A DNA stretch of 64,000 bases, from positions 1,612,001-1,676,000 of the forward strand of contig NZ_JAGF01000001.1 in assembly GCF_000526515.1 (NCBI RefSeq), in the 5' to 3' direction. The position numbers and the translations under genes are program-made. The notes under the pieces are model-generated. The model did not search any database. It worked only from the letters and a program-made list of their open reading frames with translations, and was not told the DNA's origin. The first letter of the stretch is position 1. Each line of letters begins with the position of its first letter. This document shows positions 15,971 to 33,718 of this stretch, piece after piece. Source of the DNA: Cellulomonas sp. KRMCY2 (GTDB lineage Bacteria; Actinomycetota; Actinomycetes; Actinomycetales; Cellulomonadaceae).

Positions 15971-16738
15971 CTACCGACGGAGCTGGTTGAGCAGCTCGAC
16001 CGCGCGGGCGTGGGTCTCCGGAAGGGGTTCGATCCAGATCCGGGGCGGCTGGCGCAGCAGGTCGGTGATCTGGAGCTTGGCAGCCTGCTCGTTGACCCGC
16101 AGGCGCATCCGGCGAACGGCCTCGCCGAGGTCCCAGTCGCGAGCGACCAGGACGGCGAAGGCCCCGCCACCCAGTGCGGCCATCGGGTGACCCGGCGCCA
16201 TCGCGGACGTCAGTGCCCGGCCCATGGCGGCCGAGCGCGCCATCCGGCGCCACGGCGCGAGGTCCTGGGACGCGACGTCGACCAGGACGAGGCAGTGCGT
16301 GTGGAAGGCGTAGTGCGCGTGCTTGCCCGCGGCGCCGTAGGTCTCGCCGAGCCGCACACCCAGGTACTCCGCCGTCGGCAGGCCGGACTCGGGGTCCATG
16401 CAGGCGGCCTGGACGGGTGCCGACTCGATCGCGCCGGCCCAGCCCTCGCACAGCGCGCGGACGACGTCGAGGCCGGGGTCACGGCCGATCAGCCGGAAGA
16501 GCACGCCGACGTCGTCGAGCGTCTCGGCGATGCCGACACCGGCGGCACCGCGGACCTCGCCCAGCCGTCCGGCGGCTGCGCAGGCATTCGCACCGGCGCT
16601 CAGCGCCTCGGCCAGGGCGTCCACAGCAGGGTGGTACCAGTCGCCCGGACGTAGCCACACGGAGTCGACAGTCTCGGCCCGCCACTGCTCCCGCAGGGTC
16701 GAGGCCCAGGCGTCGCGCATCTGCTCGGTCGAGGTCAC
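15971..16738 (-). CDS. Degenerate GGDEF-like domain protein
   Basis: A 255-residue soluble protein. I do not find a named family with certainty. Residues 115-130 (DPESGLPTAEYLGVRL) resemble the opening of GGDEF domains (DxLTGLxNRxxLxxRL), and residues 189-197 (LGGGAFAVL) stand where GGDEFAVLL would be. With GGGAF in place of GGDEF, the metal and catalytic residues are lost, so diguanylate cyclase activity is not expected; a GTP-binding, c-di-GMP-sensing or purely structural role is possible. The first 110 residues are helical with no membrane segment. It is divergent from the fused sigma-factor gene across 247 bases. The GGDEF link is an inference from motif spacing. Confidence 0.6.
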   Translation of the reverse strand: MTSTEQMRDAWASTLREQWRAETVDSVWLRPGDWYHPAVDALAEALSAGANACAAAGRLGEVRGAAGVGIAETLDDVGVLFRLIGRDPGLDVVRALCEGWAGAIESAPVQAACMDPESGLPTAEYLGVRLGETYGAAGKHAHYAFHTHCLVLVDVASQDLAPWRRMARSAAMGRALTSAMAPGHPMAALGGGAFAVLVARDWDLGEAVRRMRLRVNEQAAKLQITDLLRQPPRIWIEPLPETHARAVELLNQLRR

Positions 16739-16985
16739 GCCTGATGAGACAGCCCTCAGGCCCGCCTATGACGCGACTTCTGGGGGGAATGTGCCCGAAG
16801 TGCACCGATCTCACCCAGGTGGGCGGCGCCCGACGCCCGGCCGACGTGAGACGCTGTGACCAGAGGGCCCGTACACTGGGACGGCTCCCCGCGCCCGGAC
16901 GCCGTCGTCCGGGCGTCTGCAGCACCCGGACCGCTGGGGCGCGGTGTGCCCGCGCACGCCGACGATCGCCGGAGGGGAGGACGCC

Positions 16986-19900
16986 GTGAGGCTCGCCAGC
17001 GACTGGGAGCTGTCCAGCGACGCTGAGCTGATCACGGCTGTCCGCAGCGGCGTCTCGGAGGCCTTCGGGACGTTGTACGAGCGGCATGCCGACGCCGCCC
17101 GGGCGGTCGCCCGCCAGTACTCGAACTCCGCCGCCGACGCCGAGGACGCCGTCGCCGACGCCTTCTCGCGGGTGTTCGTCGCGATCCAGGGCGGCGGCGG
17201 GCCCGACGTCGCCTTCCGGGCCTACCTGTTCACCGTGATCCGCCGGGTCGCCCTCGTCCGGGTCGAGAGCGGCCGGCGCGCGCAGCCGACGGACGACCTC
17301 GAAACCTTCGAGGAGGCGTTCGGCGCAGGCGAGTCGACCGAAGAGCCGACGATGGCGGGCTTCGAGCGCGGCGTCGTCTCCCAGGCGTACAAGTCGCTGC
17401 CCGAACGGTGGCAGGCGGTCCTCTGGTACACCGAGGTCGAGGAGCTGACGCCGGCCGAGATCGCACCGGTGCTCGGCCTGACCGCCAACGGCGTCGCCGC
17501 GCTCGCGTACCGCGCGCGCGAGGGCCTGCGGCAGGCCTACCTCCAGCAGCACCTCGCAGCACCGGCCAGCGAGGCGTGCACGATCGTCAACCGCAAGCTC
17601 GGTGCCTACGTCCGTGGCGGTCTGGCCAAGCGCGAGACCGCGCTGGTCGAGTCGCACCTCGAGGAGTGCGGGACCTGCCGCCCCCTCGTGCTCGAGCTCG
17701 GCGACGTCAACCACGGCATGCGGGTGGTCATCGCCCCGCTCGTGCTCGGGGCGGCTGCTCTGGTCGCGCTCAAGGGGCTCGGCTTCGGCGGTGCGGCGGG
17801 TGCCGTCGGCGCTGCAGCCGGTGCCGGGGTGGGTGCCGGGGCCGGGGTGGGTGCGGGAGCCGGTTCGGGTGCTGGTGCCGGTGCTGGTGCGGGAGCCGGT
17901 GCCGGAGCTGGTGCGGGTGCCGGGGTCGGTGCGGGCGCTGCCGCCGGCGGGGGATCCCTCGTCGGGGCCGGCAGCGGGGCGCTCGGTCTGGCCGCGAGCG
18001 GTCTGGTCGGCGCGAGTGCCGGCGCAGCCGTGCTGGTCGACGCGGTGCACGGTGCCGCGTCGGCGTCGGGCGCCACCTCGTCGGTCGGCGCAGGGTCGAT
18101 CGCCGGTGCGGGCGCCGGAGCGGGTGCCGGAGCCGCCGGTGCTGGTGCCGCTGCCGCCGGCGGCCTGGCTGGGTTCCTGGCCGGGGTCCCGGTGGTCATC
18201 GGGCTGGTCGCAGCCACGGTGGTCGTGGCCGCAGCCGTCGGTGTCGCGGGGCTGCTGGGCGTCTTCTCCCCGAACGACGAGCCCCAGGAGGCGGCGACGC
18301 TCGCCGCCGTCGAGGAGCCTGAGCCCACGAGCCCCGCGGGAACCACCGACGAGGGTGCAGCAGGCGAGCCGGACCAGAGCGTGACCCCCGAGGGGACCGA
18401 CCCGGCGATCGTGCCGGGGCCCGTCGGGGTGCCGGTGGTGAGCACGACGACGCCTGACATGACGACGTCGGTCACGACACCGACCACCACGACACCGACC
18501 ACGCCGCCGACCACGCCGCCGACGACACCGCCGACGACACCACCGACCACGCCGCCGGAGCCTGACGAGCCCGTGCAGGTGGCGACGGTCGGTGCGCTGG
18601 CGTTGGTCTCCGGTCAGCCGACGCCCGTCTCGGTCACCGTCACCAGCGTGATCGACGGCGTGGTCAACGCGGAGTTCGCGTTCGGCGCCGGCCAGATCGG
18701 CAAGGTCACGATCGCTCCTGACGCCGCCGACCTCGCCTCCGGCACCGCCCGTGCCGCAGCGGGCCCCGATGACTGGACCTGCCAGAGCACGTCATCGACC
18801 GTCTCCGTCTGCACGAACCCGGCCCTCGTCGCCGGGGTCCCGAGCGTGCTCGAGGTGCTCGTCTCCGTCACCGACGACCGCGTCGACGGCGAGGAGGACG
18901 TCACGTTCGACATCACCACGTGGATGGACGGGTCCGAGGCGCCCAAGGCATCGGTCCCGGTGACCGGACGGCTCGCATCGCAGCCGGCCCGCATCACGGC
19001 ACAGGTCGCCGAGGGTGTCCAGCTCACCGGCGCCGTCGAGGGGCCGAGGACCACCACCGTGAGCATCCCGGTGAGCAACGCGGGCAGCACGTCCGTCCCG
19101 GTGACGGCGATCGTGACACCGCCGGAGGACCTGCCGGCCGGCGTCACGTTGCGCGACAACGCGACCGACGCGTGGACGTGTGCGCCGACCGGCGAGAGGT
19201 CGTTGACCTGCAGGAACGGCAGGCTCCTCCGGGGCTCCAGCCGAGCACTCCAGGTCGACCTCACGGCGGCGGCACCGGATCTCGCGGCGCACACCGGACT
19301 GATCGACGTCGACTACGCAGATGCGCTCACGATCGACATCCCGGCCGCCACGATCACGGTTGCGGCTCCGATCGAGATCCGCTCGGCGCCGGCGGACGTG
19401 GGTGTCTCGTTCGGACCCGACGGTGACGTGTTCGTCGCAGGGACCTACGACGCCGTCGTCGGGCTCGAGAACCTCGGTGCCACCACGACGGGCGCGCTGA
19501 CCGCCGAGGTCGACCTGCCGGTGGGCGTCAGCTGGGTCAAGGGCAGCTCCCCACGATGGACCGAGTGCTCCGACTCGGCAGACGACGCTCCGCTGGTCCG
19601 GCTGTGCGCGGCCGACATCGTGCTGTCGGCCGGTGCACCGACCGACAAGCCCGTGGAGCTACCGTTGCGGCTGAGCATCTCGGCGCGGTTGGCACCGGGC
19701 GAGTACTCGATCACCTCGAGGGTCCGCCACGGAACGACCCCGGTGGCGACCGCCGACCTCGTGCTCAACGTCCAGCCCGCGACGCCTGCGTCCCTCTCAA
19801 TCGAGGCGGCCGAGGCCGAGGCGATCTTTGAGGCCCGTGTCCCTCGGGCGGTGACCTTCACGGTCGTGAACGATGGCGGGACCACGATCGAGAACCTCAC

Positions 19901-20318
19901 TGCTGAGATCACCCTGCCGCCCGCGGTGACCTGGGCTCGTCCTGCGACTGCGTCGGACTGGTCGTGCACCGGCAAGGAGGGCTCGAACGGCATCGTCACA
20001 TGCACCCTCGCGGAGCTGTCGCCCGGGGAGCCCACCACCCTCGCAACCGAGGTCTCCGCGACGGGGACAGTCGCGTACCGCCAGATCGCCGCCAAGGTCT
20101 CCGGTGGAGGCCTGAGCGACACGGACGTCACGGCTGTGGTCGTGGCGTCGGAGCCGTGCGCTCCCGTGGAGTGGACGGAAGGCGTCTGGTACGCCAAGGA
20201 CGCGGTGGTCACGTACAAGGGCTGGAACTACCTGCGGCTGCAGGCGGAGGAAGCTCGGTTCCCGCCTGACACCATCCCGGACTACTGGCGACCGATCGCC
20301 CAGTGCTACTCCAGCTGA
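16986..20318 (+). CDS. ECF sigma factor fused to zinc anti-sigma-like, membrane, surface-repeat and chitin-binding-like modules
   Basis: One 1110-residue chain. Residues about 25-90 are sigma region 2 (FGTLYERHADAARAVARQYS, DAEDAVADAFSRVF) and 138-187 sigma region 4 (LPERWQAVLWYTEVEELT, LGLTANGVAALAYRAREGL). Residues 197-231 hold a zinc anti-sigma-like motif, Cys197 then HLEECGTC. Hydrophobic segments lie at about 246-262 and 395-427, separated by a Gly/Ala-rich tract with GAGAGAG repeats. A Thr/Pro-rich linker spans about 484-526. Then come three or four DUF11/Ig-like repeats (WTCxxT motifs) and a C-terminal module (about 1055-1110: WTEGVWYAKDAVVTYKGWNY, PDYWRPIAQC) resembling CBM5/12. The GTG at 16986 follows GGAGGGGAGG. 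The layout suggests a membrane-tethered sigma factor responding to an extracellular glycan; release mechanism unknown. Confidence 0.85.
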   Translation: MRLASDWELSSDAELITAVRSGVSEAFGTLYERHADAARAVARQYSNSAADAEDAVADAFSRVFVAIQGGGGPDVAFRAYLFTVIRRVALVRVESGRRAQPTDDLETFEEAFGAGESTEEPTMAGFERGVVSQAYKSLPERWQAVLWYTEVEELTPAEIAPVLGLTANGVAALAYRAREGLRQAYLQQHLAAPASEACTIVNRKLGAYVRGGLAKRETALVESHLEECGTCRPLVLELGDVNHGMRVVIAPLVLGAAALVALKGLGFGGAAGAVGAAAGAGVGAGAGVGAGAGSGAGAGAGAGAGAGAGAGAGVGAGAAAGGGSLVGAGSGALGLAASGLVGASAGAAVLVDAVHGAASASGATSSVGAGSIAGAGAGAGAGAAGAGAAAAGGLAGFLAGVPVVIGLVAATVVVAAAVGVAGLLGVFSPNDEPQEAATLAAVEEPEPTSPAGTTDEGAAGEPDQSVTPEGTDPAIVPGPVGVPVVSTTTPDMTTSVTTPTTTTPTTPPTTPPTTPPTTPPTTPPEPDEPVQVATVGALALVSGQPTPVSVTVTSVIDGVVNAEFAFGAGQIGKVTIAPDAADLASGTARAAAGPDDWTCQSTSSTVSVCTNPALVAGVPSVLEVLVSVTDDRVDGEEDVTFDITTWMDGSEAPKASVPVTGRLASQPARITAQVAEGVQLTGAVEGPRTTTVSIPVSNAGSTSVPVTAIVTPPEDLPAGVTLRDNATDAWTCAPTGERSLTCRNGRLLRGSSRALQVDLTAAAPDLAAHTGLIDVDYADALTIDIPAATITVAAPIEIRSAPADVGVSFGPDGDVFVAGTYDAVVGLENLGATTTGALTAEVDLPVGVSWVKGSSPRWTECSDSADDAPLVRLCAADIVLSAGAPTDKPVELPLRLSISARLAPGEYSITSRVRHGTTPVATADLVLNVQPATPASLSIEAAEAEAIFEARVPRAVTFTVVNDGGTTIENLTAEITLPPAVTWARPATASDWSCTGKEGSNGIVTCTLAELSPGEPTTLATEVSATGTVAYRQIAAKVSGGGLSDTDVTAVVVASEPCAPVEWTEGVWYAKDAVVTYKGWNYLRLQAEEARFPPDTIPDYWRPIAQCYSS
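17808..17940 (+). repeat. Gly/Ala-coding low-complexity tract
   Basis: About 130 bases of imperfect GGTGCCGG/GGTGCGGG 6-mers encoding alternating Gly-Ala(-Val) inside the fused sigma-factor gene, between its two hydrophobic segments. Slippage here could change tract length in steps of two residues without a frameshift. Confidence 0.8.
18474..18556 (+). repeat. Thr/Pro-coding short tandem repeat
   Basis: ACCACGCCGCCGAC-type units repeated six or more times, encoding a TTPTTPPTTPPTTPP linker between membrane region and surface repeats of the fused sigma factor. It resembles the glycosylated Thr/Pro linkers of cellulomonad carbohydrate-active enzymes. Confidence 0.8.
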
Positions 20319-20600: not shown

Positions 20601-21146
20601 ATGACCACCACCGAGACCGTCGTCCTGCTGGACGACGACGGGACGCGCCTCGGCACCGCCGACAAGGCCACCGTGCACACGACGCAGACCTCGCTGCACC
20701 TCGCGTTCTCGTGCCACGTCCTGAACGCCGCCGGCCTCGTGCTCGTCACGCGGCGCTCGCTGGCAAAGGCGACCTGGCCCGGGGTGTGGACGAACAGCGT
20801 GTGCGGCCACCCTGCCCCCGACGAGGAGCCGACCGATGCGGTACGCAGGCGAGCACGCTTCGAGCTCGGGCTCGAGCTCACCGACCTGCAGCTGGTGGCG
20901 CCGGACTTCCGCTACCGCGCGACCGACGCCTCGGGCCTGGTGGAGAACGAGATCTGCCCGATCTACACCGCACGTGCCGTCGCAGAGCCCGTGCCGAACC
21001 CCGACGAGGTCATGGACCACGCGTGGGTCACTCCCCAAGGGCTGCGTACCGCGATCACCGCGGCCCCCTGGGCCCTGAGCCCCTGGCTCGTCAGCTCCGC
21101 ACCCCACCTCGGCAGGCTCGACGACCGCCTCGTGAGCCGGTCATGA
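20601..21146 (+). CDS. idi: Isopentenyl-diphosphate delta-isomerase, type I
   Basis: A 181-residue Nudix-fold enzyme interconverting IPP and DMAPP, the first step supplying carotenoid precursors. The active-site Cys lies in TNSVCGHP and the metal/catalytic Glu in LVENEICP, both diagnostic of type I. GAAGG lies about 10 bases before the ATG. A nine-codon reading frame (start 20574) ends on the idi ATG but looks coincidental. The idi stop overlaps the next ATG (ATGA), placing it at the head of the carotenoid operon. Confidence 0.95.
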   Translation: MTTTETVVLLDDDGTRLGTADKATVHTTQTSLHLAFSCHVLNAAGLVLVTRRSLAKATWPGVWTNSVCGHPAPDEEPTDAVRRRARFELGLELTDLQLVAPDFRYRATDASGLVENEICPIYTARAVAEPVPNPDEVMDHAWVTPQGLRTAITAAPWALSPWLVSSAPHLGRLDDRLVSRS

Positions 21147-22240
21147 GCGCCCTGACGATCGCACCCGCGCGCGACCTCGAGCTCCAGGTCGAGGACCTCG
21201 TCACCACCGCGACCGAGCGTGCACGCCTCCGGGCGGCACCGTTCGGTCCCGAGTACGTGCTGCTGTGGTCCGAGATCGCGCGCAGCGTCCGCGGCGGCAA
21301 ACGCTTCCGGTCGGCCATCGTCCTGCGCACCCACGAGGCCCTGCGCGGTGAGCACCCGTCAGCCGCGGTGAGCGTCGCGGCGGGCTTCGAGATGCTGCAC
21401 ACCGCCTTCCTGATCCACGACGACCTCATCGACGGCGACACCATGCGACGCGGGCAGCCGAACCTTGCCGCGACCATGCACCGCCAGGCCATGGCCGCCG
21501 GGCACGGCACCGAGTGCTCGCGCCGGTGGTCGGACGCCGCCGCCGTCCTGGCCGGTGACCTCGCCCTGAGCCAGGCGCACCGGCTGATCGCGTCCGCGGA
21601 CGTGTCCCCCGCACGTCGCGAGGCCCTGCTGGACCTGCTCGACGAGACGCTCGTCGTCACGGCCGGCGGCGAGCTCGCAGACACCGCGTTCGGTCTCGGG
21701 CTGCACACGCCGAGCCTCCAGGAGTCGCTGCTGGTCGCGGAGACGAAGACGGCGATGTACTCCTTCCGGGCCCCGCTGCGCGCCGGGGCCGTGCTGGCCG
21801 GGGCCGGGCAGCGCGTGCTCGACGAGCTCGACGACCTGGGCCGTCTGCTCGGCCGTGCCTTCCAGCTCGTCGACGACCTCCTGGGCGTGTTCGCCCCGGA
21901 GGAGGCCAGCGGCAAGAGCAACCTGAGCGACCTGCGCGAGGGCAAACGGACCCCGCTGATCCTGTTCGCCGCGACCATGCCGGTATGGGCGGAGCTCGCC
22001 GACCACGTCGGGCGCCCCGACCTCGACGAGGCGACGGCCGCCGGCCTTCGACGTGCCCTGGCCCGCTCGGTGGCGCCGACGATGGTGCAGGACGCCATCC
22101 GCGCGGACCTGACGGTCGTGCGCAGCCGCCTGTCGACCGGACGCCTGCCCGATGCGCTCGCGCTCGTCGTCGCCTCGGTGGCCGACCAGATCGGTGCGGC
22201 GCTCGGCGATGTCGCGCGGCACATCGACGAGGCCCGATGA
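21143..22240 (+). CDS. crtE: Geranylgeranyl diphosphate synthase
   Basis: A 365-residue all-helical prenyl transferase that condenses IPP with allylic diphosphates to GGPP (C20). The first Asp-rich motif is DDLIDGDTMRRG, with GKRFRS upstream, and the second is QLVDDLLG. The start ATG overlaps the idi stop and the TGA overlaps the crtB ATG. In this context the product should feed phytoene synthase. Chain-length specificity is inferred from the operon. Confidence 0.93.
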   Translation: MSALTIAPARDLELQVEDLVTTATERARLRAAPFGPEYVLLWSEIARSVRGGKRFRSAIVLRTHEALRGEHPSAAVSVAAGFEMLHTAFLIHDDLIDGDTMRRGQPNLAATMHRQAMAAGHGTECSRRWSDAAAVLAGDLALSQAHRLIASADVSPARREALLDLLDETLVVTAGGELADTAFGLGLHTPSLQESLLVAETKTAMYSFRAPLRAGAVLAGAGQRVLDELDDLGRLLGRAFQLVDDLLGVFAPEEASGKSNLSDLREGKRTPLILFAATMPVWAELADHVGRPDLDEATAAGLRRALARSVAPTMVQDAIRADLTVVRSRLSTGRLPDALALVVASVADQIGAALGDVARHIDEAR

Positions 22241-23115
22241 GCGGCCGGCTGAGCCTCTACGACACGGTCGCCCAGCGTGCGGCCGACGTGATGGTCCGGG
22301 GCTACTCGACGAGCTTCGGCCTGGCCACCCGCCTGCTGCCGCCGATCGAGCGGGTGCACGTGCGCAACGTCTATGCCCTGGTGCGCCTGGCGGACGAGGT
22401 CGTCGACGGCGCGACCCAGGAGGCAGGCGCCGACGCCGGCACGGCCAGGGGACTGCTCGACCGCCTCGAGGCGGAGACCTACGAGGCGATGACCACCGGC
22501 TACAGCACCAACGTCCTGGTGCACGCCTTCGCGACGACGGCACGGTGGGCGGGGATCGGCACCGAGCTCGTCGAGCCGTTCTTCGCCTCGATGCGCACCG
22601 ACCTGGACCGCTCCGACCACGACGCCGCGAGCCTGGCCCGGTACATCCACGGCTCCGCCGAGGTCGTCGGTCTGATGTGCCTGCGGATCTTCCTCGCGAG
22701 CGCGCCGGCGGCGAACCGGCCGGCCCGGTACGACGCGCTCGCACCAGGGGCCAAGGCGCTCGGCGCGGCCTTCCAGAAGATCAACTTCCTTCGCGACCTG
22801 GCCGAGGACCATGAGGCGCTGGGCCGCAGCTACTTCGTCGGGGTCGACCCGCAGCGGCTCACCGAGACCCAGAAGCGGGCGATCATCGCCGACATCGACG
22901 CCGACCTGGCCGTGGCCGCCGTCGCCGTCCGTGACCTGCCGCCGTCGGCACGCCGGGCCGTGCGGGTCGCGCACGCGCTCTTCGCCGAGCTGTCGCGCCG
23001 GTTGGCGGCGACCCCGGCGCGCGACGTCCTGCGCAGTCGCGTGCGCGTACCCGGGCCGGTCAAGGTCCGGCTCGCCGTCGTGGCGTTGCTGCCGAACCGG
23101 CCAGGGGGTCAGTGA
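22237..23115 (+). CDS. crtB: Phytoene synthase
   Basis: A 292-residue squalene/phytoene synthase that joins two GGPP into phytoene. It starts MSGRLSLYDTVAQRAADVMV and has both Asp-rich motifs: RLADEVVDG (about residues 48-56) and NFLRDLAEDHEALGRSYF. YSTSF near residue 25 is the conserved family start. The start overlaps the crtE stop (ATGA). Confidence 0.95.
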   Translation: MSGRLSLYDTVAQRAADVMVRGYSTSFGLATRLLPPIERVHVRNVYALVRLADEVVDGATQEAGADAGTARGLLDRLEAETYEAMTTGYSTNVLVHAFATTARWAGIGTELVEPFFASMRTDLDRSDHDAASLARYIHGSAEVVGLMCLRIFLASAPAANRPARYDALAPGAKALGAAFQKINFLRDLAEDHEALGRSYFVGVDPQRLTETQKRAIIADIDADLAVAAVAVRDLPPSARRAVRVAHALFAELSRRLAATPARDVLRSRVRVPGPVKVRLAVVALLPNRPGGQ

Positions 23116-24851
23116 TGTCCAGGAGCGCTGTCGTCGTCGGCGGCGGGATCGCGGGGCTGGCCACCGCTGCCCTGCTCTCGCACGAGGGGTACCAGGTCAC
23201 CGTGCTCGAGGCGCGCGACGAGGTCGGTGGGCGGGCCGGCTCCTGGGTCGCCGACGGCTTCCGGTTCGACATCGGGCCGTCGTGGTACCTGATGCCGGAG
23301 GTCTTCGAGCACTTCTTCGCGCTCCTGGGGACCACCGCGGCCGAGCAGCTCGAGCTCGTGCGCCTCGACCCCGCGTACCGCGTCTACTACGAGCACCACG
23401 AGCCGCTCGACGTCCGGTCGGACCTCGAGGACAGCGTCCGGCTCTTCGAGGGCGTCGAGCCCGGCGCCGGCGAGCGGCTGCGCGGCTACCTGGCGTCGGC
23501 GTCGGACGCCTACACGATGGCCACCCGTCACTTCCTCTACACGACGTACGCCTCGCTGCTGCCCCTGGCGAGCGTCGAGGTGTTGACCCGGTTGCCCCAG
23601 CTCGGCCGGCTCCTGACGCAGTCCCTCAAGAGCCGCATCCACGAGACGGTCAGCGACACCCGGCTGCGGCAGATCCTGGGGTATCCCGCGGTGTTCCTCG
23701 GTGCGGCCCCCAGCCTGACCCCGAGCATGTACCACCTGATGAGCCACCTCGACCTCGTCGACGGTGTGCTCTACCCCCGGGGCGGCTTCACCGAGCTCAT
23801 CGCCGCGATCCACCGCCTCGCGGCGAAGGCCGGCGTCGAGGTGCGCACCGGGGCGGACGTCGTGGCGATCACGACCGGGCCCACCCGTGGGCCGCGGGAG
23901 CGCGGGCTGCTGCGCCGCGCCCGCGCGACAGGTGTCCGGTACCGGGACGCCGACGGCAGGACCTACGAGCTGCGGGCCGACCTCGTCGTGGCCACCACCG
24001 ACCTGAGCCACGCCGAGCGCGACCTCCTGCCACCGCGTCTGCAGTCGTACTCCCGGCGCTGGTGGCGTGCGCAGCTGCCAGGTCCCAGCGCTGTGATGGT
24101 CTACCTGGGCGTGCGAGGACCGTTGCCGCAGCTCGAGCACCACAGCCTGTTCTTCGCCGAGAACTGGGACCGGACGTTCGAGCAGATCTTCGCCCCCCTG
24201 ACGGCGGACGACCCGCGGCCCATGCCCGACCCGACGTCGGTCTACGTCAGCCGGGTGACCGCCACCGACCCGACGGCTGCGCCCGACGGCATGGAGAACG
24301 TCGTCGTGCTCGTCCCGGTGCCGCCGGACGTCCGCCTCGGCCGGGGGGGACTCGACGGTGCGGGCGATCCCTGGGTCGAGCGCGTCGCCGATGCGGCGAT
24401 CGCGCAGATCGCCGGCTGGGCGGGTGTGGCGGACCTTGCCGAGCGCGTGGTGCTGCGACGCACGATCGGACCGGCCGACTGGGCGCACGACCTGCGTGCG
24501 TGGCGCGGTACGGCGCTCGGCCCGGCTCACACGCTGCGGCAGAGCGCCATGTTCCGGGCCGGCAACGCCTCGCGACGGGTCGCCGGGCTGTACTACGCGG
24601 GCGGCTCGGTCGTGCCAGGCATCGGCCTGCCGATGTGCCTGATCAGCGCGGAGCTCGTGATCAAGCGGCTGCGCGGGGACACCTCGACCGGGGCGCTCCC
24701 TGTCCCGGCCTTCGAGCGGCGCCATGCATCGGTGCCGGTGCCGGTGCCGGTGGCGGCCGAGGTCCGGGCCCCGGCTGAGGTCCCGGCCCCGGCCGAGGTC
24801 CCGACGCCGGCTGAGGTCCCGCTGCACCACCCCGGTGCGGGAGCTGCATGA
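23115..24851 (+). CDS. crtI: Phytoene desaturase, lycopene-forming type, with repeat tail
   Basis: A 578-residue FAD enzyme that desaturates phytoene to lycopene. The N-terminal dinucleotide fold is VVVGGGIAGLATA and the C-terminal FAD motif is GLYYAGGSVVPGIGLPMCL, both CrtI hallmarks. AGGGGG lies 6 bases before the ATG at 23115; a GTG one codon upstream overlaps the crtB stop. About 60 residues follow the catalytic core, ending in Val-Pro and PAEVP repeats (residues about 535-570), which typical CrtI proteins of about 500-550 residues lack. Confidence 0.95.
   Translation: MSRSAVVVGGGIAGLATAALLSHEGYQVTVLEARDEVGGRAGSWVADGFRFDIGPSWYLMPEVFEHFFALLGTTAAEQLELVRLDPAYRVYYEHHEPLDVRSDLEDSVRLFEGVEPGAGERLRGYLASASDAYTMATRHFLYTTYASLLPLASVEVLTRLPQLGRLLTQSLKSRIHETVSDTRLRQILGYPAVFLGAAPSLTPSMYHLMSHLDLVDGVLYPRGGFTELIAAIHRLAAKAGVEVRTGADVVAITTGPTRGPRERGLLRRARATGVRYRDADGRTYELRADLVVATTDLSHAERDLLPPRLQSYSRRWWRAQLPGPSAVMVYLGVRGPLPQLEHHSLFFAENWDRTFEQIFAPLTADDPRPMPDPTSVYVSRVTATDPTAAPDGMENVVVLVPVPPDVRLGRGGLDGAGDPWVERVADAAIAQIAGWAGVADLAERVVLRRTIGPADWAHDLRAWRGTALGPAHTLRQSAMFRAGNASRRVAGLYYAGGSVVPGIGLPMCLISAELVIKRLRGDTSTGALPVPAFERRHASVPVPVPVAAEVRAPAEVPAPAEVPTPAEVPLHHPGAGAA
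24767..24829 (+). repeat. Tandem repeat encoding the crtI C-terminal tail
   Basis: Imperfect copies of a unit near GCCCCGGCTGAGGTCCC, coding three to four PAEVP-like pentapeptides at the end of CrtI, after a VPVPVPV run. It lies just before the crtYe start. Confidence 0.75.
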
Positions 24852-25198
24852 GCGCCGCGTACGGTCTTGCCCTGCTGGTCTCGCTCGCGGGGATGGCGAT
24901 GCTCGACCGCCGGTTCCGGCTCTTCTTCTTCGACGCGCCGCGTCGCGCAGCCGTGGTGCTGGTGTCCGGGGTGGCCTTCTTCGTCGTCTGGGACCTCGTC
25001 GGGGTCGACCTCGGGATCTTCTTCCGCGGCCGGACCGAGTTCATGTCCGGCTGGCTGCTCGCGCCACAGCTCCCGGTGGAGGAGATCGGCTTCCTCGCCC
25101 TGCTGTGCTACCTGACGATGAACCTCTACGTCGCGTTCACCCGACTCACCGTCCGGGACCGGGAGCGGGCAGCGCCACGCCCGGGAGGTCACGGGTGA
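24848..25198 (+). CDS. crtYe: C50 carotenoid cyclase subunit 1
   Basis: A 116-residue membrane protein with three helices, one half of a heterodimeric lycopene-cyclase-domain enzyme. The conserved PVEEIGFLAL (PxE(E/D) motif) lies at about residues 76-85. The partner half is the next gene. Together they cyclise the C50 intermediate made by the elongase. The ring type (epsilon, gamma or beta) cannot be told from sequence motifs here, so the symbol is by analogy with Corynebacterium. ATG overlaps the crtI stop. Confidence 0.88.
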   Translation: MSAAYGLALLVSLAGMAMLDRRFRLFFFDAPRRAAVVLVSGVAFFVVWDLVGVDLGIFFRGRTEFMSGWLLAPQLPVEEIGFLALLCYLTMNLYVAFTRLTVRDRERAAPRPGGHG

Positions 25199-25572
25199 CG
25201 TACCTGTACCTGGCCATGGTGTTCATCGGCCTCGCCACGACGGTGGCGCTCGTCGCCCGATGGCGCACCGGCGGGCCGTCCGTCACGGCGATCGCCCTGA
25301 GCGTCGTCGTGCTCGCCGCGACGACGGCCGTGTTCGACAACCTGATGATCTCCGCGGAGCTGTTCGGCTTCGCCGAGGAGCACCTGATCGGTGCGTTCGT
25401 CGGGCGGGCCCCGGTGGAGGACGTCAGCTATCCGGTGGCCGGTGCACTGCTGCTCCCGGCCCTGTGGCACCTGCTCGCCGGACGTGAGCGCGACCGGGCC
25501 GAGGGGCGGGCCGAGCCTGACCCAGCCGAGGACGGCCGTTCGACGCACGCCCCGAGCGGGGGCGACCGGTGA
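25195..25572 (+). CDS. crtYf: C50 carotenoid cyclase subunit 2
   Basis: A 125-residue partner subunit with three hydrophobic segments and the second conserved motif APVEDVSYP (about residues 72-80). The GTG start overlaps the previous stop and has GGGAGG 8 bases upstream. The C-terminal 25 residues are hydrophilic and acidic. It should function only as a complex with the preceding protein. Confidence 0.87.
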   Translation: MTYLYLAMVFIGLATTVALVARWRTGGPSVTAIALSVVVLAATTAVFDNLMISAELFGFAEEHLIGAFVGRAPVEDVSYPVAGALLLPALWHLLAGRERDRAEGRAEPDPAEDGRSTHAPSGGDR

Positions 25573-26447
25573 CCGCAGGTGGCGTCACCGCGACGCTGCG
25601 TCAGCTGGCCCTGGCGTCCCGGCCGCTCAGCTGGGTCAACACCGCCTACCCGTTCGCCGCCGCCTACGTCATGGCCGCGCATGAGATCGACCTCCGCCTG
25701 GTCGTCGGGACGGTGTTCTTCCTGATCCCCTACAACCTGCTGATGTACGGCGTCAACGACGTGTTCGACCACGAGTCGGACCTGCAGAACCCGCGCAAGG
25801 GTGGCGTCGAGGGCGCGCTGCTGGACCGGCGTCTGCACCGGACGACGCTGGCCGCGGCCCTGCTGCTCCCGCTGCCGTTCGTCGCGGTCCTGGTGGCGGT
25901 GGGCCCGCCGCTGTCCTGGCTGGTCCTGGCGGTGTCCCTGTTCGCGGTGCTCGCCTACTCGGTGCCGGTGCTCCGGTTCAAGGAACGCCCCGTGCTGGAC
26001 TCGCTGACCTCCAGCACGCACTTCGTCTCGCCGGCCCTGTACGGGCTGGTCCTGGCCGGACAGCCGATCGGACGCGCGGCATGGCTCGTGCTCGCCGCCT
26101 TCTTCGTGTGGGGCGCGGCGAGCCAGGCTTTCGGCGCCGTCCAGGACATCGCCGCCGACCGCGCGGCCGGGATCGGCTCGATCGCGACAGTCCTCGGTAC
26201 CCGCGGCACCGTCCGGTTCTCGCTGGGCTGTTACCTGCTGGCCGGTCTGCTCCTGCTCGCAACCCCGTGGCCCGGCCCGCTCGCCGCCCTGCTGGTCCTG
26301 CCCTATGCCGCGATCGTCTGGCCCTTCCGGTCCGTGCCCGACGCCGCCGCGGAGTCGGCCAACCGTGGCTGGCGCCAGTTCCTCGGCGCCAACTACGCGG
26401 TCGGCTTCCTCGTCACGATGCTCCTGATCTGGAGCGCCCGCCTCTGA
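25569..26447 (+). CDS. crtEb: Lycopene elongase (UbiA-type prenyltransferase)
   Basis: A 292-residue membrane protein with eight to nine helices that attaches two C5 units (DMAPP) to lycopene, giving C45 and C50 carotenoids. The first Asp-rich motif is NDVFDHESD (about residues 64-72) and the second is VQDIAADRAAG. Residues LQNPRKGG after the first motif match the CrtEb/LbtBC subgroup. GTG start overlaps the crtYf stop, so six genes from crtE to crtEb are chained by 4-base (or shorter) overlaps. Confidence 0.92.
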   Translation: MTAGGVTATLRQLALASRPLSWVNTAYPFAAAYVMAAHEIDLRLVVGTVFFLIPYNLLMYGVNDVFDHESDLQNPRKGGVEGALLDRRLHRTTLAAALLLPLPFVAVLVAVGPPLSWLVLAVSLFAVLAYSVPVLRFKERPVLDSLTSSTHFVSPALYGLVLAGQPIGRAAWLVLAAFFVWGAASQAFGAVQDIAADRAAGIGSIATVLGTRGTVRFSLGCYLLAGLLLLATPWPGPLAALLVLPYAAIVWPFRSVPDAAAESANRGWRQFLGANYAVGFLVTMLLIWSARL

Positions 26448-32452: not shown

Positions 32453-33718
32453 TCATCCAGCAGAGGCAGGTCGAGCGCCGAGCTCGTTCAGTCGGGTGCG
32501 AAGGAACGCATGCTCGGCCGGGTTGGTCGCCAGCTCGAGAGCACGCCGGTACGCCGTCACCGCCGCGTCTCGTCTCCCGGCTCGACGGAGCAGGTCCGCG
32601 CGGGTGACCTGGTAGGCGTGGTACCCGGCGAGGTCGAGCGTGTCGAGGATGTCGAGGGCCGCCTCTGGCCCGTCCGTCTCCGCGACCGCGACGGCACGGT
32701 TGAGTGCGACGACGGGGGTGGGGTCCACGGCGTACAGCTGGTCGTAGAGGGCGACGATCTGGCGCCAGTCCGTGTCTTCGAGACTCCTGGCGTCGGTGTG
32801 GACGGCGTTGATGGCGGCGAGGATCTGGTAGCGGCCGGGCTGTCCCCTGCGCAGGCAGGCGCGGACGATGTCGTGGCCCTCGGCGATGAGGGCGCGATCC
32901 CAGCGGGAGCGGTCCTGGTGCGCCAGCAGGACCAGGACGCCGTCCTCGACCCGGCTCGGCCGGCGCGCGTCGGTCAGGAGCATCAGGGCGAGCAGTCCGA
33001 GCACCTCGAGGTCGTCCGGCATGAGGGCCGCGAGGATCCTCGTCAGCCGGACCGCCTCGACGCACAGGTCGGTCCGGACCACCGGGCGCCCGTCGCCTGC
33101 CGGTGCGGCGGTCGGCGTCGAGGGTAGGTAGCCCTCGTTGAAGATGAGGAAGAGCGTCGCGAGGACCGCGCTCAGGCGGTCGGGCAGCTCGGCGTCCGAC
33201 GGCACCCGGTACGGGATCCGTGCCGCCTTGATCTTCTGCTTGGACCGGGTCAGCCGCTTCGCCATCGCCGCCTCGTCGACCAGGAAGGCGCTCGCGATCT
33301 CGGCGACGGTCAGGCCGCCGAGGAGTCGCAGGGTGAGCGCGACCTGGGCGCCGGTCGCCAGCGCCGGGTGGCAGCAGGTGAACATCAGCCGGAGCCGGTC
33401 GTCCACGACCGAGGAGACGGGTGCGGTGGCCCAGTCGCTGGTGTCGCTGATCATGGCGGCCTGCGCATGTTTGGCGTCGCGGATCGACTCGCGGCGGATC
33501 CGGTCGATCGCCCGGTTGCGGGCCGTCGTCGTCAGCCAGGCCCCGGGGTTCGGAGGCAGGCCGGACTCGGGCCAGCGCTGCACGGCGATGAGGTACGCCT
33601 CCTGGGCCGCCTCCTCGGCCACGTCGATGTCGCCGAAGTGGCGGACCAGGGTCGCGACGACCCGACCGTGCTCCTCCCGGAAGACACGGTCGAGATCGGG
33701 CGTCCCGCGCGTCGACAC
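32453..33718 (-). CDS. ECF42-type sigma factor with TPR extension
   Basis: A 421-residue RNA polymerase sigma factor. Sigma region 2 is VFREEHGRVVATLVRHFGDIDVAEEAAQEAY and region 4 lies around residues 125-165 (ALTLRLLGGLTVAEIASAFLV, AMAKRLTRSKQKI). The long C-terminal TPR-like extension (residues about 190-415) includes FNEGYLPS and DGPEAALDILDTLDLAGYHAY, hallmarks of group ECF42. No anti-sigma factor is present; in this group the extension itself regulates activity and the partner is a DGPF/YciI protein, found 7 bases upstream. The GTG at 33718 is the likely start. Expected targets are the neighbouring YciI and RibD-like genes. Confidence 0.92.
   Translation of the reverse strand: MSTRGTPDLDRVFREEHGRVVATLVRHFGDIDVAEEAAQEAYLIAVQRWPESGLPPNPGAWLTTTARNRAIDRIRRESIRDAKHAQAAMISDTSDWATAPVSSVVDDRLRLMFTCCHPALATGAQVALTLRLLGGLTVAEIASAFLVDEAAMAKRLTRSKQKIKAARIPYRVPSDAELPDRLSAVLATLFLIFNEGYLPSTPTAAPAGDGRPVVRTDLCVEAVRLTRILAALMPDDLEVLGLLALMLLTDARRPSRVEDGVLVLLAHQDRSRWDRALIAEGHDIVRACLRRGQPGRYQILAAINAVHTDARSLEDTDWRQIVALYDQLYAVDPTPVVALNRAVAVAETDGPEAALDILDTLDLAGYHAYQVTRADLLRRAGRRDAAVTAYRRALELATNPAEHAFLRTRLNELGARPASAG

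Follow-up and report, generated by a model that had tools for sequence, protein, structure and literature searches.

In a 64,000-nucleotide stretch of the Cellulomonas sp. KRMCY2 genome (assembly GCF_000526515.1, contig NZ_JAGF01000001.1, positions 1,612,001 to 1,676,000; hereafter the window, whose numbering we use), a single open frame encodes an extracytoplasmic function (ECF) σ factor, an anti-σ zinc finger and a long, repeat-bearing tail, and it lies back to back with a gene for a degenerate GGDEF-like protein that is preceded by a candidate ECF-type promoter (Table 1). The wider question is which signal such fused, tethered ECF σ factors sense and which promoter they read. A preliminary description of the locus, made from the letters of the DNA, had recognized σ regions 2 and 4 and an anti-σ zinc motif in one protein, and the frame of 1110 residues and its profile matches bear this out. 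Besides the Pfam matches, the NCBIfam sigma70-ECF model matches residues 25-184 with 71.4 bits, the zinc-finger residues C198, H224, C228 and C231 are invariant across 53 aligned heads, and a fused zinc-finger domain is present in 31/31 aligned sequences, so that the domain matches support a one-protein σ/anti-σ fusion. In a structure model of the head, the σ domains are confidently predicted, and Foldseek retrieves σ factors, several of them complexed with an anti-σ factor, with low whole-chain template modeling scores. The start of the fusion gene is uncertain, since an in-frame GTG at 16944 is a possible upstream start that would add 14 residues.

Table 1. Features of the fusion gene, its divergent neighbor and the candidate promoter (window coordinates).
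Feature	Position	Strand	Remarks
Fused ECF σ factor gene	16986..20318	+	Open frame, 1110 residues plus stop
σ region 2	17073..17276	+	Residues 30-97; Pfam PF04542 Sigma70_r2, 44.6 bits, over cut-off
σ region 4	17385..17522	+	Residues 134-179; Pfam PF08281 Sigma70_r4_2, 25.2 bits, just under cut-off of 25.7
zf-HC2 anti-σ zinc finger	17577..17681	+	Residues 198-232; Pfam PF13490, 33.9 bits, over cut-off
Hydrophobic segment 1	17724..17780	+	Residues ~247-265; VIAPLVLG, conserved; probably no membrane pass
Gly/Ala-rich, nearly charge-free tract	17781..18170	+	Residues 266-395; putative cytoplasmic tether
Hydrophobic segment 2	18171..18266	+	Residues ~396-427; putative single membrane pass
Acidic, then Thr/Pro-rich linker	18267..18590	+	Residues 428-535; predicted from sequence to lie outside
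Four Ig-like/DUF11 repeats	18591..20150	+	One cysteine pair per repeat
CBM5/12 (chitin-binding-type) module	20157..20306	+	Cysteines 1058/1107
Divergent gene, degenerate GGDEF-like protein	15971..16738	-	255 residues; putative leaderless start
Candidate ECF-type promoter	16743..16774	-	GCGTCAT-N18-TCTCATC (equally GCGTCAT-N17-GTCTCATC); 4 bases ahead of divergent start codon

Beyond the zinc finger, the protein carries ten cysteines whose spacing suggests five pairs (599/609, 732/742, 861/874, 994/1006 and 1058/1107), presumably one for each of four repeats and one for the end module. The "three or four" DUF11/Ig-like repeats of the preliminary description can thus be set at four, and the repeat region, scanned alone, matches DUF11 over the cut-off (25.6 versus 24.6 bits). 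The C-terminal residues had been proposed to form a CBM5/12-type carbohydrate-binding end, and the last 57 residues do match Pfam CBM_5_12 (23.3 bits, E 6.6e-5). Support comes from a profile of nine family C-termini, whose first match in the PDB is the chitin-binding domain of chitinase C (2d49, E 2.1e-6) and which also matches that of chitinase A1 (1ed7, E 4.9e-5). Where the family has a module of the CBM5/12 type, its aromatic residues are conserved. The tail model is β-rich, with a mean predicted local distance difference test score (pLDDT) of 51.5, and is usable only for the end module (pLDDT ~90) and parts of the first repeats; its Foldseek matches to integrin legs, pilins and collagen-binding domains are, at that mean pLDDT, a hint only.

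The distribution of the gene was followed in 61 family genomes (own genome included) and in 296 genomes drawn from the phylum, both searches thus remaining inside the phylum. The first 255 residues are matched in 57/61 family genomes at E <= 1e-15, a count that includes the own genome and shorter paralogues, and in 15/296 phylum genomes at E <= 1e-30 (own genome included). A long orthologue, as read from the match table, occurs in 51/61 family genomes with 51-100% identity; in five genomes the matches are limited to shorter paralogues with no more than 42% identity (G012, G015, G019, G039 and G040), and four have no match to the head (G004, G029, G046 and G053). Among the best 80 matches listed in a further scan of genome contigs, all are actinobacterial; of these, the closest named relatives of the head are from Actinotalea (81-82%), followed by Cellulomonas, Cellulosimicrobium, Demequina and Isoptericola, with Amycolatopsis, Kribbella, Nocardiopsis and others at 51-57%. 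By a simple pattern, the end modules of 32 family tails are CBM5/12-like in 12, of an LGVDAK type in seven and of other kinds in 13, and at E <= 0.01 Pfam finds CBM_5_12 in 5/31 and DUF11 in 18/31 family sequences. The end module thus varies, whereas long orthologues share 51-86% identity with the window protein in the head, which argues against a fixed glycan ligand; judged from these sequences, the variable module speaks for an exchangeable sensor or anchor. Assemblies seem to break at the Gly/Ala tract, as several contigs or frames stop within it or shortly ahead of it (L041, L188, L189, L203, L222, L235, L241 and L246; window 17781-18170), and truncated copies should accordingly be read with care. 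Two further copies stand apart: at G017:C8:60794-61462, a head of 52% identity has an open frame of only 251 codons, either a tail-less copy or a frame break, and in L193, a Cellulomonas timonensis record, the fusion frame finishes in a foreign- or adapter-like stretch, possibly an assembly artifact.

The membrane topology of the protein was judged from hydropathy and from the charges flanking the hydrophobic segments, the charge analysis being based on the 120 sequences that passed filters for length and hydropathy; the segment energies are illustrative only. The preliminary description had seen only two clear helices, and two hydrophobic segments are indeed present (their mean hydropathy over 33 family sequences is 2.13 and 2.30), the second of which alone looks like a membrane pass. 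Cysteines after residue 300 are even and non-zero in number (2-14) in 32/32 family tails, with L041 and L044, which are cut by contig ends, excluded from tail counts; the number is also even in 16/17 and 28/30 tails of two further sets, giving 76/79 overall. Such even counts, as expected for disulfides formed outside, indicate that the tail lies outside. Within the family, the Gly/Ala linker is almost free of charge (17 charged residues in 3797 over 33 sequences) and therefore silent on topology, and 51 aspartates or glutamates (D/E) versus three lysines or arginines (K/R) follow segment 2. In 31 distant homologues, the linker between the segments holds 79 K/R versus 5 D/E, and the ratio of K/R to D/E changes from 44:4 in the 12 residues before segment 2 to 5:32 in the 12 residues after it (Fisher p 1e-13, kinship ignored). 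By the positive-inside rule, the K/R-rich linker of these homologues suggests that the linker is cytoplasmic and that segment 2 is the sole outward pass. Segment 1 of the distant homologues has 65 D/E and 25 K/R on its N-terminal side and 1 D/E and 29 K/R on its C-terminal side, a charge order that, as far as sequence can tell, is the reverse of an inside-to-outside pass. More likely, this segment, with its largely conserved proline and glycine, packs on the σ/anti-σ part or rests on the membrane; the head model has low confidence at this segment (pLDDT about 50-74) and does not decide between these. The outside location of the tail that had been proposed is thus favored by cysteine parity, the charge rule and the domain types in agreement, and the puzzle of an even number of passes in such proteins dissolves.

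The divergent gene adjoins the fusion gene in 34/34 family loci (window included) and, in named genomes, in 46/47 close and 25/33 distant loci, and a comparison of flanking DNA found it beside none of 20 genes that encode shorter paralogues or other distant homologues. A profile of the divergent protein has a GGDEF protein as its best, weak match in the PDB (7e6g, E 0.0026). Pfam GGDEF_2 is matched in only 1/17 members, the window copy has no Pfam match, and in the 17-member alignment the GG(D/E)EF active-site signature has given way to GxGx(F/Y), so the protein is called degenerate GGDEF-like with caution. At least 12 of the 14 bases of the promoter are kept in 28/34 family loci, and the gap to the divergent start codon is 3-5 bases in most loci, for which reason the divergent transcript should be leaderless. 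To count the element by strand against dinucleotide shuffles, we used the general form CGTCAY-N17-GTC, with two family sets that overlap in genomes. It points towards the divergent gene in 20/34 family loci (0 on the σ strand; shuffle mean 0.3), 15/47 close loci (3 on the σ strand; shuffle mean 0.6) and 24/33 distant loci (6 on the σ strand; shuffle mean 0.2). Of 28 shorter fused paralogues, 27 could be placed for this count, and here the pattern lies on the σ gene's own strand in 10/27 and on the opposite strand in three (shuffle mean 0.2), as would be expected of autoregulation; a divergent partner was found beside none of the eight such paralogues examined for one. The pattern was found before none of eight other σ genes examined in the window genome, out of 32 other σ matches. 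The same element therefore occurs in two arrangements, each on one branch of fused ECF genes, which is the best evidence that these σ factors read it, and we infer that the σ part of the fusion protein recognizes GCGTCAT-N17/18-(G)TCTCATC.

Searched genome-wide, the exact pattern gives 39 sites in 28/61 family genomes, with none for a reversed-pattern control. The genes behind these sites belong to four families, namely GGDEF-like (19), small GerE/LuxR (14), EAL (3) and HATPase_c_2 (3); 38 were assigned from short sequence signatures in the 420 bases that follow the site, the remaining one is L042, and Pfam confirms one or two examples each of the GerE/LuxR, EAL and HATPase_c_2 families. Outside the family, 10/295 genomes have one exact site each (reversed-pattern control, 1), and all ten lie inside reading frames 140 codons or longer, with the four families following none of them. 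A long orthologue is present in 27 of the 28 family genomes that contain an exact site; only G053 has a site and no match to the gene, probably because of a gap in its assembly, which is split into 160 contigs. Leaving G053 out, the exact site is missing from all nine genomes that lack a long orthologue, and the co-occurrence of orthologue and site reaches p 0.003 (kinship ignored). The window genome has two exact sites, one before the divergent gene and one before a gene for an EAL protein, whose frame is open from the promoter and has no ATG or GTG at leaderless distance. Of the 17 EAL genes identified, 6 are preceded by at least 11 of the 14 bases (the G030 gene left out). The small GerE/LuxR regulators behind the promoter are single-domain proteins (75-101 residues where the frame was called) from six genera (L141, L143, L144, L145, L146, L150, L151, L160, L165, L166, L168, L170, L172 and L173). 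A near-exact site, GCGTCAC-N17-GTCTCACC, stands ahead of a gene for a type IV pilin, which itself follows pilT- and pilC-like genes (L295:2185-2756; window genome 3595684-3596255). We dropped pilA as a supported target, as the threshold was reached at 1/30 pilin loci and at none of the other 29.

Taken together, these observations are consistent with a membrane-tethered, self-inhibited, ECF52-like σ factor that glycan or surface contact would free to read GCGTCAT-N17/18-(G)TCTCATC, with other signaling proteins as its direct output, a reading that we hold with roughly even credence. By analogy with zf-HC2 anti-σ factors, the zinc-finger segment would keep the σ part inactive within the same chain, and the Gly/Ala tether would run inside the cell to one membrane pass, segment 2. 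Outside, the four disulfide-bearing Ig-like repeats would form a stalk that carries, in this species, the CBM5/12 module. Contact with a polysaccharide or surface might then alter or strain the arm, and cleavage or a shape change, as already proposed in print for ECF52 (PMC5826349), might free the σ part to transcribe first the divergent degenerate-GGDEF gene and the EAL gene and, in relatives, also the small GerE and HATPase genes. The preliminary description had likewise read the protein as an outside-in device from which polysaccharide binding releases the σ part by proteolysis, an interpretation that is, as a whole, partly supported. More tentatively, Actinotalea, Cellulomonas and their relatives may possess a direct relay from surface polysaccharide to signaling proteins of the cyclic di-GMP family. 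This relay would consist of one tethered σ factor whose glycan-binding arm is exchangeable and of a dedicated promoter that it reads, placed ahead of genes of the GGDEF-like, EAL, small GerE and HATPase types, and the divergent GGDEF-like protein would be its partner, conserved across orders.

Several observations weigh against the tethered-sensor reading, some of them touching its topology. At face value, two hydrophobic segments would return the tail to the inside, and if both crossed, as their hydropathy would allow, there would be no surface sensor; moreover, 17 sequences from paralogues and presumed Streptomyces relatives show a less marked charge signal (12 K/R and 7 D/E before segment 2, 16 and 26 after it). 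However, a tail in the cytoplasm is hard to square with the cysteine parity, with the charges around segment 2 in the distant homologues, and with chitin-binding-type and Ig-like domains behind a Thr/Pro linker, and we regard it as highly improbable. The preliminary description had instead suggested that the Gly/Ala tract may also span the membrane, and three passes through segment 1, part of the tract and segment 2 would retain the odd number; in some sequences the tract does have stretches that come near a hydropathy of 2 (1.86 in the window, 2.07 in L059). Yet the distant homologues reach the same tail via K/R-holding linkers of 23-55 residues with, by eye, no third hydrophobic stretch, and the acidic N-terminal and basic C-terminal flanks of their segment 1 are opposite to those of an outward pass. 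On the evidence of these homologues, we rejected the tract as a membrane pass and place it, together with segment 1, in the cytoplasm, leaving the three-pass arrangement only a slender chance.

Other points bear on the signal and on the promoter. The CBM_5_12 score falls below the Pfam cut-off of 26.2 bits, and the end module is not conserved, some family members having another one or none at all, with the head and the even cysteines kept; this would suit an arm that serves as a wall- or matrix-spanning stalk sensing envelope state or mechanical strain, with the end module as a mere anchor, as would the resemblance of the low-confidence stalk model to integrin legs, pilins and collagen-binding adhesins. 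Against such a stalk, the end module, where present, is a recognizable chitin-binding-type domain with conserved aromatics, and the one presumed Streptomyces ECF52 relative scanned, L100, ends in a sugar-binding NPCBM domain, so that a signal other than a glycan appears possible but unlikely. As for the promoter, the exact site is missing from 24/51 genomes that have a long orthologue, 20 of the 39 exact sites lie elsewhere than at the divergent gene, and the window genome has 33 Sigma70_r2 matches, all of which would fit a fusion gene that merely neighbors an element read by a different σ factor. Furthermore, the pattern is found within 350 bases upstream of 0/6 presumed Streptomyces genes (L100-L104 and L107), although their true starts may lie further upstream than assumed. 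The motif published for SCO4117 (CSGYN-17-SRHA), one of those termed theoretical by their authors (PMC5826349), differs from GCGTCAT-N17-GTC. A looser pattern, CGTCAY-N17-GTCTCAYC, matches recurrent coding DNA, also where the genome lacks the fusion gene, and was not used for counts, and the GGDEF assignment of the divergent protein is weak, its signature being lost. We nevertheless consider reading by a different σ factor rather improbable, because the pattern tracks two separate fused-ECF branches, preceding the divergent partner in one arrangement and the σ gene itself in the other, also in distant orders, and because the nine genomes without a long orthologue lack the exact site.

Around this pair of genes, dnaK, grpE, dnaJ and an hspR-like gene lie upstream of the fusion gene, an arrangement shared by many but not all family loci. 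Downstream (window 20601-26447) follows a carotenoid/isoprenoid cluster with an idi-like NUDIX gene, GGPP synthase, phytoene synthase, desaturase and UbiA-like genes, named by resemblance except for the NUDIX domain; among the loci compared, only the close relatives L039 and L040 have this cluster downstream of the fusion gene. The window contains a second σ70 region 2 match (33485-33682, - strand), whose frame extends far beyond it at the C-terminal end and resembles ECF42-type proteins.

The preliminary description had noted that fused ECF/anti-σ proteins, some of them with carbohydrate-binding ends, were already known, and the layout found here does match that of ECF52, a group described as exclusively actinobacterial, whose first characterized member is described as SCO4117 of Streptomyces coelicolor, an actinobacterial ECF σ factor with a zinc finger, a transmembrane region, a proline-rich extension and a carbohydrate-binding domain, and with unsuccessful overproduction attempts on record in the same account (PMC5826349). 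Release by a protease cascade after carbohydrate binding has been proposed for ECF52, a proposal that PMC5826349 credits to Pinto and Mascher 2016, and a 2022 review expects ECF48, ECF52 and ECF53 to be activated by proteolysis (PMC8999054). In the presumed Streptomyces relatives the segments follow one another as they do here, two hydrophobic ones being separated by a Gly/Ala tract. In contrast, their heads are only 41-47% identical to that of the window, whose protein is about twice as long as theirs (520-617 residues) and has four Ig-like repeats and a CBM5/12 module rather than the NPCBM domain of L100; the divergent GGDEF-like partner is absent at the presumed Streptomyces loci, the neighbor of SCO4117 being atrA (PMC5826349), and, as stated above, the promoter pattern sets the window gene apart from them as well. 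ECF48 and ECF53 share a C-terminal anti-σ fusion with a zinc finger, one to two membrane helices and, in some cases, carbohydrate-related domains (PMC8999054, PMC10766802), and the shorter fused paralogues of our family may be nearer to these. IutY of Pseudomonas putida (ECF243) is likewise a σ factor fused to a membrane anti-σ factor, and its activation by regulated proteolysis is described as shown; it differs in serving Gram-negative iron signaling, with no glycan-binding arm in the description given by PMC8999054. Chitinase C and chitinase A1 supply the best profile matches to the end module among PDB chains that consist of the domain alone; there the domain sits in chitinases, here at the end of a σ factor protein. 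A literature search of titles and abstracts found nothing on the divergent partner or the promoter, though two large surveys were not covered, so that prior publication is possible. The domain layout and the proteolytic-release device are thus of an already known kind, that of ECF52, of which the window protein is a long-armed form. To this layout, our analysis adds a better-supported topology, a divergent gene as its constant partner, and a candidate promoter that is, together with its target set, sharply defined. The 39 exact sites in 61 genomes, all before four signaling families, together with the adjacent, presumably leaderless partner gene, offer a ready reporter for signal, protease and ligand, and the signal of this long-armed relative of SCO4117 thereby becomes testable.

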